From positions 434,001-498,000 of the forward strand of contig NZ_CP086615.1 in assembly GCF_020883455.1 (NCBI RefSeq): a stretch of 64,000 nt of DNA, in the 5' to 3' direction. The notes below the pieces were generated by a model. That model saw only the letters and a list, made by a program, of their open reading frames with translations. It was not told the DNA's origin and ran no database searches. Of this stretch, positions 3,965-12,555 are shown in pieces. Both the position numbers and the translations under genes were made by a program. Every line of letters starts with the position of its first letter. Position 1 is the first letter of the stretch. The stretch is from Spiribacter halobius (GTDB lineage Bacteria > Pseudomonadota > Gammaproteobacteria > Nitrococcales > Nitrococcaceae).

Positions 3965-4530
3965 CAGAACCGCAGTCGCGCACCCACGGTGAGCAGCTCC
4001 TGCTCGTCGCCGAGCTCCAATTCGCCGCCCACCTGCACCCGGCGGCCGACGTCGACCCAGGTCTCGCCGTAGAGCCCGAGCTCCTCGTCGCTGTCGAGGT
4101 CGTAGTAGACGGCGCCGCCGCCGAGGGTAACCCCGGGCGAAATGGTGCCGAGCACGCCCCCGCGCAGGCCGAAGCCGTCATCGTCCCGCTCGCTGGCGCC
4201 GCGCTCCAGCTCGCGGTTCTCGTAGAACAACTCGCCGATGAGGTCGAAGTTGCGGCTGATGGGGCCATGCAGGCCGCCACCGAGGCGGAAGTCCTCGCGG
4301 TCGACCCCGGCATCCAGGTCCCAGGCCGCGTAGCGGCCGAGGAGATAGGCATTCGGGCCGATGCTGAACTTGCCGTCCAGCACCAGTCCCTCGCCGTCGC
4401 GGTCGCGCTCGTCGAGCTCGATCAGGCCGACGCCGAGGCCGACGTGATCATAGCTGGGCTCCGCGGCTGCCGTTCCGGCTGCCAGCGTTGCGGCGGCTGC
4501 CGCCGCGGCAAGCGTCATGGTCTGGCGCAT
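3964..4530 (-). CDS. YfaZ-like outer-membrane beta-barrel protein
   Basis: 188 residues with an Ala-rich signal peptide (cleavage after TAAA, about residue 23). The mature part alternates Gly-rich short strands and acidic turns (YDHVGLGVGLIEL, LGGGLHGPISRNFDLIGE, FGLRGGVLGTISPGV) and ends in a terminal Phe (VGARLRF), the C-terminal signature for BAM-dependent outer-membrane insertion. Similar to YfaZ-type small barrels; no substrate is known. Transcribed just upstream of the panE-like gene with a one-base overlap. Confidence 0.7.
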   Translation of the reverse strand: MRQTMTLAAAAAAATLAAGTAAAEPSYDHVGLGVGLIELDERDRDGEGLVLDGKFSIGPNAYLLGRYAAWDLDAGVDREDFRLGGGLHGPISRNFDLIGELFYENRELERGASERDDDGFGLRGGVLGTISPGVTLGGGAVYYDLDSDEELGLYGETWVDVGRRVQVGGELELGDEQELLTVGARLRF

Positions 4531-10598: not shown

Positions 10599-11555
10599 TC
10601 AGGGGTCAAGTCTTGACATGACAGTTTCCCGTTTTCGCTTCAGCGCCTCCGCTCCGAGCGCCTCACGCAGTCGCCGGATCGCCTGCGTGACTGCGGAGTA
10701 ATGCAGCCCGCCAAAGCGCTCGCCGATCTCCTGCAGGCTTGCACCGGCTTCCTGGCGGCATAGCCACATTGCGAAGGGCCGACTCCTGTGCGGTGGCCGT
10801 CCGCGGCGCGCGGTGAGGTCATCGATGCGTATGCCCGCATCATCCGCGACTGCCTGCAGCACCTCGTCCATGGTGCGCCAGCGTCGCCTCTCCGTAACCG
10901 GGACCTCGTCCGCCGGCCGCGCCAGCGCCAGCATGCGTTCCTTGAACTGGTCACTTCCCAGCACCGGCGGCCTGCGCGCGCTTGCGTAGAACTCGGCGAT
11001 CTCCTGCTCAACGCCCATGGCCACGAATCGCTGATAGCGCGCGGGTGTGTCATTCCGTCCCATCGCCGCCAGGATCTCGCTCGTGCTGATCCACGGCGCC
11101 GATGGCCTAGCGCCGATGTATTCGGGATAGCTGGACCAGCGCCAGCCCTCAAGCTCTGCAGTGAGGGGCGTCAGGCAGTCGATCGGGTTGCGATGGATGT
11201 ACCGCGAGACGGTAAGCAGGTAGGCGTCCGACTCCACCAAAATGGCCTTGTAGCGGCCACGGAACAGGGGGCCATCCGTACCCGCCACCCGGTTGTAACG
11301 CTGCGTATAGACCCCGTCGAGATGACGCATTGCCCGCCCGAGATTGGCGAAGGGCGTCCGCAGCAGCAGATGGTAGTGATTGGGCATTAGGCAGTAGGCA
11401 TGCACCTCGATACGGAATCGGTCCACCGTCTCGGCGAGGGTATCCAGGAAGCGCTGGTAGGCATCACCGTCGGGGAAAGTCACCCGCCGGCCGGCGCCGC
11501 GGTTCATGACGTGATACCAGGCGCCTTCGTACTCGATGCGGAGGGGGCGAGCCAT
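10599..11555 (-). CDS. REP-associated tyrosine transposase (RAYT) with DnaA-like C-terminal domain
   Basis: 318 residues. The N-terminal ~160 residues are a Y1 (IS200-like) transposase domain: start ARPLRIEYEGAWYHVMNRG, metal motif His60-Tyr-His62 (LMPNHYHLLL) and nucleophile Tyr119 in SRYIHRNP. Residues ~235-318 form a helix-turn-helix of the DnaA C-terminal type (SLQEIGERFGGLHYSAVTQA), found in one RAYT subgroup. Such proteins cleave single-stranded DNA at REP hairpins and are thought to spread REP sequences rather than themselves. The gene is bounded by 25-base inverted terminal repeats (10602-10626 and 11672-11696) and looks intact. Confidence 0.9.
   Translation of the reverse strand: MARPLRIEYEGAWYHVMNRGAGRRVTFPDGDAYQRFLDTLAETVDRFRIEVHAYCLMPNHYHLLLRTPFANLGRAMRHLDGVYTQRYNRVAGTDGPLFRGRYKAILVESDAYLLTVSRYIHRNPIDCLTPLTAELEGWRWSSYPEYIGARPSAPWISTSEILAAMGRNDTPARYQRFVAMGVEQEIAEFYASARRPPVLGSDQFKERMLALARPADEVPVTERRRWRTMDEVLQAVADDAGIRIDDLTARRGRPPHRSRPFAMWLCRQEAGASLQEIGERFGGLHYSAVTQAIRRLREALGAEALKRKRETVMSRLDP
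10602..10626. repeat. RAYT-associated terminal repeat, left copy
   Basis: 25 bases beginning GGGGTCAAGTCTTGACATGA, containing the near-palindrome TCAAGTCTTGA. It overlaps the last codons and stop of the transposase gene, so the C-terminal residues VMSRLDP are encoded by the repeat. Its exact inverted copies lie at 11672-11696, 12290-12314 and 12460-12484. Confidence 0.9.
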
Positions 11556-11705
11556 GGCACGGCATCCTGCCGAGATCTGCGACGCGATCCATGCGCCGGT
11601 GGTGGTGATAGTAGATCCGGGAGGACGCGATTGCGAGGGTGGGCTTTCGGTTATGGCTCGCAGAGGGGGTGAACTGTCATGTCAAGACTTGACCCCTTCG
11701 CCTCG
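11088..11705. repeat. Tandem duplication unit 1 (618 bp)
   Basis: First copy of an exact-looking 618-base direct repeat. It covers codons 1 to about 156 of the RAYT gene, its upstream region and the 25-base terminal repeat at 11672-11696. The second copy follows immediately at 11706-12323; reading the two I saw no difference, so the event is recent. Confidence 0.9.
11672..11696. repeat. RAYT-associated terminal repeat, second copy
   Basis: Starts AACTGTCATGTCAAGACTTG and is the exact reverse complement of 10602-10626. Together they flank the intact RAYT gene like inverted terminal repeats of a 1.1 kb unit. Confidence 0.9.
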
Positions 11706-12173
11706 GATCCACGGCGCCGATGGCCTAGCGCCGATGTATTCGGGATAGCTGGACCAGCGCCAGCCCTCAAGCTCTGCAGTGAGGGGCGTCAGGCAGTCGA
11801 TCGGGTTGCGATGGATGTACCGCGAGACGGTAAGCAGGTAGGCGTCCGACTCCACCAAAATGGCCTTGTAGCGGCCACGGAACAGGGGGCCATCCGTACC
11901 CGCCACCCGGTTGTAACGCTGCGTATAGACCCCGTCGAGATGACGCATTGCCCGCCCGAGATTGGCGAAGGGCGTCCGCAGCAGCAGATGGTAGTGATTG
12001 GGCATTAGGCAGTAGGCATGCACCTCGATACGGAATCGGTCCACCGTCTCGGCGAGGGTATCCAGGAAGCGCTGGTAGGCATCACCGTCGGGGAAAGTCA
12101 CCCGCCGGCCGGCGCCGCGGTTCATGACGTGATACCAGGCGCCTTCGTACTCGATGCGGAGGGGGCGAGCCAT
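11682..12173 (-). pseudogene. Truncated RAYT transposase (5' fragment from the tandem duplication)
   Basis: Encodes the first ~156 residues of the RAYT at 10599-11555, identical in sequence, then seven unrelated residues read from the repeat junction (RGEGVKS) before a stop. It keeps His60-x-His62 and Tyr119, so the whole Y1 catalytic core is present, but the DnaA-like C-terminal domain is missing. It could still make a small nuclease domain; whether it is expressed is unknown. Confidence 0.85.
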
Positions 12174-12323
12174 GGCACGGCATCCTGCCGAGATCTGCGA
12201 CGCGATCCATGCGCCGGTGGTGGTGATAGTAGATCCGGGAGGACGCGATTGCGAGGGTGGGCTTTCGGTTATGGCTCGCAGAGGGGGTGAACTGTCATGT
12301 CAAGACTTGACCCCTTCGCCTCG
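11706..12323. repeat. Tandem duplication unit 2 (618 bp)
   Basis: Second copy of 11088-11705, offset exactly 618 bases. The join CTCG|GATCC at 11705/11706 shows no target-site duplication, so slippage or unequal crossing-over is more likely than insertion. Confidence 0.9.
12290..12314. repeat. RAYT-associated terminal repeat, third copy
   Basis: Identical to 11672-11696, carried along by the 618-base duplication. Confidence 0.9.
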
Positions 12324-12459
12324 ATGCGAAGGGGACGAGCCATGGGACGGCATCCTGCCGAGGTCTGCGACGCGATCCCTGCGCCGGTGGCGGTGATGGT
12401 AGATCCGGGAGAGCGTAATTGCGAGGGCGGGATCGCGGTTATGGTTTGCGGAGGTGGCG
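12324..12459. repeat. Diverged remnant of the RAYT upstream region
   Basis: About 136 bases resembling the segment from the RAYT start codon to its upstream terminal repeat (11536-11671), with roughly one difference in seven bases by eye. It ends in a fourth, undiverged terminal repeat at 12460-12484. An older, internally deleted copy of the same element; no gene remains. Confidence 0.75.
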
Positions 12460-12484
12460 AACTGTCATGTCAAGACTTGACCCC
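12460..12484. repeat. RAYT-associated terminal repeat, fourth copy
   Basis: Same 25 bases as at 11672 and 12290 although the DNA to its left is diverged. The repeat is therefore more conserved than its surroundings. It is followed by GCCCTTCG and a short tandem of CCACGAAGAAAG (12502-12526). Confidence 0.85.
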
Positions 12485-12526
12485 TTCGCCCTTCGCTGCG
12501 TCCACGAAGAAAGCCCCACGAAGAAA

Positions 12527-12555
12527 GCCGCAGGATACGAACTGTATCCTGCGGC
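12527..12555 (-). terminator. Rho-independent terminator of pilA
   Basis: A perfect 12-base stem (12527-12538 with 12544-12555) with a 5-base loop, followed on the minus strand by TTTCTTC. It lies 25 bases beyond the pilA stop codon. Confidence 0.85.

Follow-up and report, generated by a model that had tools for sequence, protein, structure and literature searches.

Relatives of a TIRYT element in Spiribacter halobius have terminal inverted ends that are unusually prone to exact tandem duplication across the boundary of the element, and the S. halobius element itself has had its upstream end duplicated three times, with units of 7 nt, 170 bp and 618 bp. The locus lies in a stretch of 64,000 nucleotides (positions 434,001 to 498,000 of contig NZ_CP086615.1, referred to here as the window), in a genome that is a single contig of 4,172,350 bp. 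With a probability of about 0.5, we consider the locus to be a TIRYT element whose end duplications would have arisen by abortive nicking by its Y1 enzyme, inward extension and rejoining, a chemistry inferred from the pattern of breakpoints. No description of a rule of end-spanning duplication was found in the literature searched, mostly without full texts, and to that extent the rule appears to be new.

Two Y1 open reading frames are found in the window, both on the minus strand (10599-11555, 318 aa, and 11682-12173, 163 aa). The longer is the TIRYT gene, encoding a Y1 HUH nuclease domain and a C-terminal helix-turn-helix (HTH) resembling domain IV of DnaA, and its last codons overlap the left inverted end (10601-10626, plus strand). 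This end is an exact inverted match to the right ends on the minus strand, of which the first copy (11672-11697) closes the intact element. The first-pass annotation had described exact inverted repeats of 25 bases; they are exact and inverted, and their length is 26 bp. A unit of 618 bp (11088-11705, minus strand), comprising part of the gene with the region upstream of it, the right end and a further 9 nt past its terminal CCCC, is directly abutted by a second copy (11706-12323, minus strand) at 100% identity, just as the earlier annotation had it: an exact head-to-tail duplication. With the second copy come another right end (12290-12315, minus strand) and the 163-aa reading frame, created by the duplication, which holds the whole Y1 domain without the DnaA-like tail. 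Further out lies an older 170-bp end duplication (12321-12490, minus strand) with a third right end of the same sequence as the others (12460-12485, minus strand), which is itself spanned by a 7-nt tandem duplication (12481-12495, no strand assigned, bounds read from the sequence). Exact 22-mers of the end occur four times in the window against none expected from 100 shuffles.

The third stretch, at a spacing of 170 bp, had been taken for a decayed copy about 85% similar to the others, with an undiverged end. It is 88% identical, with 20 mismatches in 170 bp and none in the 26-bp end, so that the unchanged end stands while the similarity needed correction. By simple arithmetic, 26 intact bases beside 20 changes in 144 would occur by chance in about 2% of cases, which is suggestive only. 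The stretch reads as an older 170-bp duplication of the end and not as a full element that has decayed; over the seven codons that it shares, both differences are synonymous, which is too few to conclude from. The proposal that the array grew stepwise is upheld, one end having been duplicated in an older event of 170 bp, a recent one of 618 bp and one of 7 nt. In the DNA separating the TIRYT locus from a pilin-like gene there is a hairpin, directly next to which 14 bp are perfectly duplicated in tandem (12502-12529).

The Pfam Y1_Tnp domain is found at residues 12-123 of both reading frames (PF01797, 45.6 bits against a cut-off of 23) and Bac_DnaA_C at residues 230-295 of the 318-aa frame only (PF08299, 45.6 bits against 31.5), which, with the 26-bp ends, supports the earlier view that inverted repeats enclose the gene of a Y1 protein related to RAYTs and extended by a DnaA-like domain. 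An HYH motif at residues 60-62 and Y119, the putative catalytic tyrosine, are present in both products, and in 81 aligned proteins their conservation is 0.99, 1.00 and 0.99 for HYH and 1.00 for Y119. With these residues kept, the truncated second frame would indeed encode a complete Y1 domain, as had been claimed. The DnaA-like tail matches the solved structure of DnaA (1j1v, E 6.6e-7). In the alignment LHYSAV stands in place of RDHTTV, which we take to be the residues of DnaA that read the DnaA box, and recognition of DnaA boxes by the tail is therefore unlikely.

By its sequence the locus appears to fit a TIRYT element (“TIRtron”) of the TnpAY1 subclass 2.1 kind, not a classical RAYT/REP locus. 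In the available parts of Di Nocera et al. (2013, PMC3733652), TIRYT genes sit in TIRtrons, with repeats that occur as singles, dimers and groups, and the available text of Quentin et al. (2018, PMC6006769) describes a TnpAY1 subclass 2.1 with Bac_DnaA_C-type tails that is probably the same as TIRYT; in the literature searched, the term TIRYT is found only in these two papers. The S. halobius locus combines a Y1 HUH domain carrying the HUH motif and the putative catalytic tyrosine, a C-terminal HTH of the Bac_DnaA_C type, and terminal inverted repeats unrelated to GTAG REPs (exact ends of 26 bp, no GTAG). As in what is accessible of those accounts, the gene lies between GGGG-type inverted repeats that are also found singly and as dimers elsewhere in the genome. 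It differs in its terminal motif, GGGGTCAA, which matches the published GGGGWSAS at seven of eight positions, GGGGWSAS being given in the part of PMC3733652 available as a majority consensus of the TIRYT repeat and not as universal. Neither same-orientation partial copies of one end nor end-spanning duplications were found in the available portions of the TIRYT/TIRtron accounts.

The first-pass annotation had likened the ends to those of REPs and BIMEs, and this assignment was not sustained. The ends, AGGGGTCAAGTCTTGACATGACAGTT, lack a GTAG-type tetranucleotide, and the protein reaches 48.1 bits with the NCBIfam REP-transposase model (NF047646), whose cut-off is 80. REP repeat families of RAYTs usually exceed 100 copies; here no abundant cognate family was found, the 22-mer of the end having 10 matches at three or fewer mismatches in 4.17 Mb, four of them at the locus. 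The three right ends share one orientation instead of alternating, as BIME ends would, and each duplication reaches a few nucleotides past the end. BIME- or REPIN-like head-to-head dimers of the end are present in the genome, outside the locus. The earlier reading had been staked on the end occurring elsewhere in the genome, and it does so in only a handful of places: two pairs (contig positions 1522283-1522346 and 556482-556543), singles at 1284142 and 2322161, and a further degenerate pair at 1339721, about five places in total. Both of the first two pairs are perfect head-to-head palindromes longer than the end itself, and that at 556482-556543 has the same T-to-C change in both arms. The end family is small and dimeric, and thus REPIN-like rather than an abundant REP.

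Compared with the RAYT/REPtrons of E. coli and Pseudomonas and their REPINs or BIMEs, the locus shares a low-copy Y1 gene between inverted repeats and the dispersal of its end in the shape of head-to-head dimers, and differs in the extra DnaA-like domain, the absence of a GTAG tag, the few copies and the sub-threshold score with the REP-transposase model. Tandem reiteration that includes flanking segments of variable length is described for REP clusters in the available part of PMC3733652, and may be related to the end-spanning duplications reported here. The IS200/IS605 family shares the Y1_Tnp domain; the element here differs from it in having inverted, identical ends and in lacking other full copies in the genome, and its protein scores 13.7 bits with the IS200 transposase model (cut-off 55). 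A multicopy insertion sequence was likewise rejected, as the full element occurs once in the genome, accompanied only by the local duplicate and a remnant of 38 positions with a stop.

Relatives of the protein were taken as the best 80 matches from a scan of genome contigs, at 34-58% identity and from many phyla. Among these best 80 listed, 57 have a usable GGTCA-type terminal inverted pair and 23 do not. One member of the pair commonly precedes the start codon by ~20-35 nt and the other is near the stop, and the element spans ~0.9-1.15 kb in most relatives with such a pair. The two closest relatives among the matches listed (58% and 56% identity, both from Desulfobacterota-type organisms) have 24 and 23 bp of end sequence identical to that of the window, indicating a stronger constraint on the end than on the protein. 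The GTCAA/TTGAC arms within the ends are nearly invariant, and the next pair does not covary, as judged by eye only. A lone end with one mismatch is followed ~70 nt on by a degenerate end of the same orientation in L034:1143-1245, and in L076:1310-1600 right ends of the same orientation are arrayed with short mosaic spacers beside the relative's element.

Dimers were searched for in 35 genomes bearing relatives (drawn from 36 of the best 80 loci listed; L117 was left out). The pattern GGGGTCARRTC-N20..50-GAYYTGACCCC is found in 11 of the 35, with up to 40 occurrences per genome, and the reversed control pattern in none of the 35; protein matches at E 1e-25 number one to eight per genome in the same set. 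Vibrio halioticoli has 18 dimers and one protein match, and its exact dimer type is present in two of 118 genomes of its genus, itself included. Past the common end, its dimers (for example L154, L193, L196 and L199) have place-specific yet perfectly palindromic centres, with arms of up to 32 nt, as if palindromes had been corrected or captured. Genome G066, which carries L073, has 40 head-to-head dimers, belonging to several end families with a common GGGGTCAGGTCT, many of them perfect palindromes and some repeated without change at many places. As dimers at separate sites in this genome agree even in the loop, the dimer has evidently been copied as a whole.

The propensity for duplication was assessed by counting exact tandem duplications with a unit of 7-60 nt that include the element boundary. 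In the first set, drawn from the best 80 relatives listed, such duplications are present at 24 of 112 ends, an excess that was noticed in this set before it was counted there, compared with nine of 2080 random outer-flank positions and none of 2240 positions inside the elements (the control positions, 20 per flank, are not independent). Fresh data come from the second set and from the dimers only. The second set was drawn from further matches in the first-set genomes and from the family and order of the host; of its 65 loci, 27 were dropped (five because the first set contained them, 22 for want of a pair of score 14) and 14 more, lacking GGTCA, were left out, giving 24 loci with 47 ends. Four of these 47 ends carry an end-spanning duplication, against four of 900 random flank positions and none of 940 inside. 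The ends of 38 dimers carry nine in 76, a count that has no matched control. None was found at the 30 ends of 15 annotated insertion sequences of E. coli K-12, and the pooled ends of the relatives (28/159) differ from these with p = 0.009. The feet of ordinary hairpins at the same loci and in the window yielded one match in 208, that one being the hairpin at 12502-12529 of the window. Flanks shuffled by dinucleotide gave a mean of 0.2 per 112. Joining flanks to the ends of other elements gave a mean of 16.7 per 112, which is no null, since the flanks themselves contain the partial copies and one end resembles another. Larger copies running from flank into element have units of up to ~80 nt in the relatives, and reach hundreds of base pairs (618 bp) only in the window.

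The two breakpoints of these duplications behave differently. In the window, the outer breakpoint is 4-5 nt (7-nt unit), 5-6 nt (170-bp unit) and 9 nt (618-bp unit) past the terminal CCCC, and the inner breakpoint lies ~2-3, 164 and 609 nt inside, respectively. Across 22 two-copy events (the three-copy cases L071_R and L078_R were left out), the outer breakpoint has a median of 5 nt outside GGGG (interquartile range 4.1-6.4, mostly 3-9 nt); with the larger units of the window included, the inner one ranges from 2 nt up to 609 nt. When compared with units placed at random across the boundary, the 22 events together give p = 0.05 for the mean, which is weakly below random, and p = 0.0009 for the spread; for units of at least 12 nt, the window set aside, the mean outer breakpoint is 6.8 against 10.8 expected (p = 0.017), again with a narrower spread (p = 0.004). 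The outer breakpoint is a cluster and not one position, covering 3-13 nt in the first set and falling at 5-6, 7-8, 8 and 9-16 nt in the four second-set events. No common dinucleotide was seen there by eye. Overlap at the junction averages 0.64 nt in the 22 events, compared with ~0.67 by chance as calculated arithmetically, and there is no excess microhomology.

In the available part of PMC8266576, TnpAREP enzymes are described as joining strands and as leaving a 3'-OH together with a 5' end linked to the tyrosine. On the reading that we favour, the Y1 enzyme would nick one strand a few nucleotides outside GGGG, on the strand read from the flank into the element; synthesis from the freed 3'-OH would proceed into the element for a distance k that varies, and the 3' end so made would then be joined to the 5' end held by the tyrosine, leaving a tandem copy of [-5..+k]. 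Such a sequence of steps predicts an anchored outer breakpoint, a free inner breakpoint and no microhomology. At the upstream end of the window element it would have taken place at least three times, with units of 7 nt, of 170 bp (old) and of 618 bp (recent), the last also giving rise to the Y1-only reading frame. Being the functional substrate, the ends would be kept from changing. The odds of this mechanism are lowered slightly by the outer breakpoint being a cluster rather than a point, and by the small size of the second set (4/47). In the literature searched, no description of nick-extend-rejoin chemistry was found for IS200/IS605 elements or RAYTs.

The main rival is that the ends are merely fragile, and that slippage or template switching during replication at palindromic ends duplicates them without any transposase. 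This has in its favour the inverted GTCAA/TTGAC arms within the ends and the long perfect palindromes formed by the dimers, and the sole ordinary hairpin foot with a duplication belongs to a terminator-like hairpin adjoining the TIRYT locus itself (12502-12529). Replication slippage usually makes use of microhomology, whereas the junction overlap here is at the level of chance, the feet of other hairpins show only 1/208, and it is the side outside the end that is anchored while the side inside is free. The hairpin-foot control and the absent microhomology thus weaken this explanation, which we regard as unlikely.

Alternatively, elements or end fragments with a preference for their own ends might have inserted successively beside an existing end, so that nested ends mimic duplications. 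The symmetric nested ends of L073, the partial copies or copies with internal deletions that stand separately in the vicinity of elements in L057, L060, L061, L103 and L123, and the 12% difference of the third remnant in the window are consistent with this; nested insertion leaves unexplained, however, both the exact tandem repeat of flank nucleotides between partial and full end and the abutting 618-bp copy with zero divergence, and we find it quite improbable. Among the internally deleted copies, those in L103:79-388 and L123:96-420 are MITE-like and lie near the full element, that of L103 having both ends 97-98% identical to it. The 618-bp repeat, taken singly, might be an ordinary spontaneous tandem duplication, or an artefact of assembly, with no relation to the ends of the element: it is exact, it is known from assembled sequence, and its outer breakpoint at 9 nt is off the centre of the cluster. 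Either seems very unlikely, given that the window shows three such events at a single end and that other ends in the first set, the second set and the dimers have the pattern too.

Other carriers, empty sites and target duplications were also sought. Within the order, the exact 18-nt end is found in one of 54 genomes, which is that of S. halobius, and protein matches at E 1e-30 in six of the 54, its own included. Five plasmid records have relatives, all below 60% identity, and of six stretches of virus contigs that matched a pattern none encodes a relative. Between V. halioticoli (G087) and a congener (G154) the presence of dimers differs, and at two dimers the intergenic DNA could not be aligned, giving no clean empty site. 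Two dimer copies flank an insert in the congener (L202:2523-3482), where V. halioticoli has one dimer (L200:18753-18800); the insert has a reading frame that is presumably integrase-like, judging from its motif, and the dimer sits between an A-run and a T-run, like a terminator stem. The longest direct flank matches of 55 elements are 0 nt in 31, 3 nt in 11, 4 nt in 11 and 5 nt in two, compared with 33.2, 14.6, 5.2 and 1.5 expected from shuffled partners; beyond the excess of 4-nt matches, no target-site duplication of fixed size was found in these 55, and no match is longer than 5 nt. A 239-bp direct repeat (96%) of the 3' end of a gene lies on both sides of the element in L077 (2708-2946 and 3996-4234), like a very long target duplication. 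In L112, an identical direct repeat of 73 bp with a terminator-like hairpin (2859-2931 and 4429-4501) has one copy just outside the left end and the other ~440 bp past the right end.

More tentatively, an abortive reaction of rolling-circle type at inverted ends may be general to the TIRYT family, with the tandem copy from -5 to +k as its signature, and could give rise to end arrays and to Y1-only derivative genes; palindromic dimers might also stem from it, by way of fold-back synthesis. The duplications bear on the unsettled question of how RAYT-like enzymes present in single copy amplify the sequences of their ends. If the duplications are the scar of nicking, extension and rejoining, genome sequence alone would be enough to predict strand, position of the cut and polarity for this enzyme class, and a straightforward test in vitro would come within reach; the origin of the partial end copies and Y1-only derivative genes beside TIRYT elements would also be explained. 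Even if slippage is the cause, TIRYT ends would be an unusually active hot spot of duplication.
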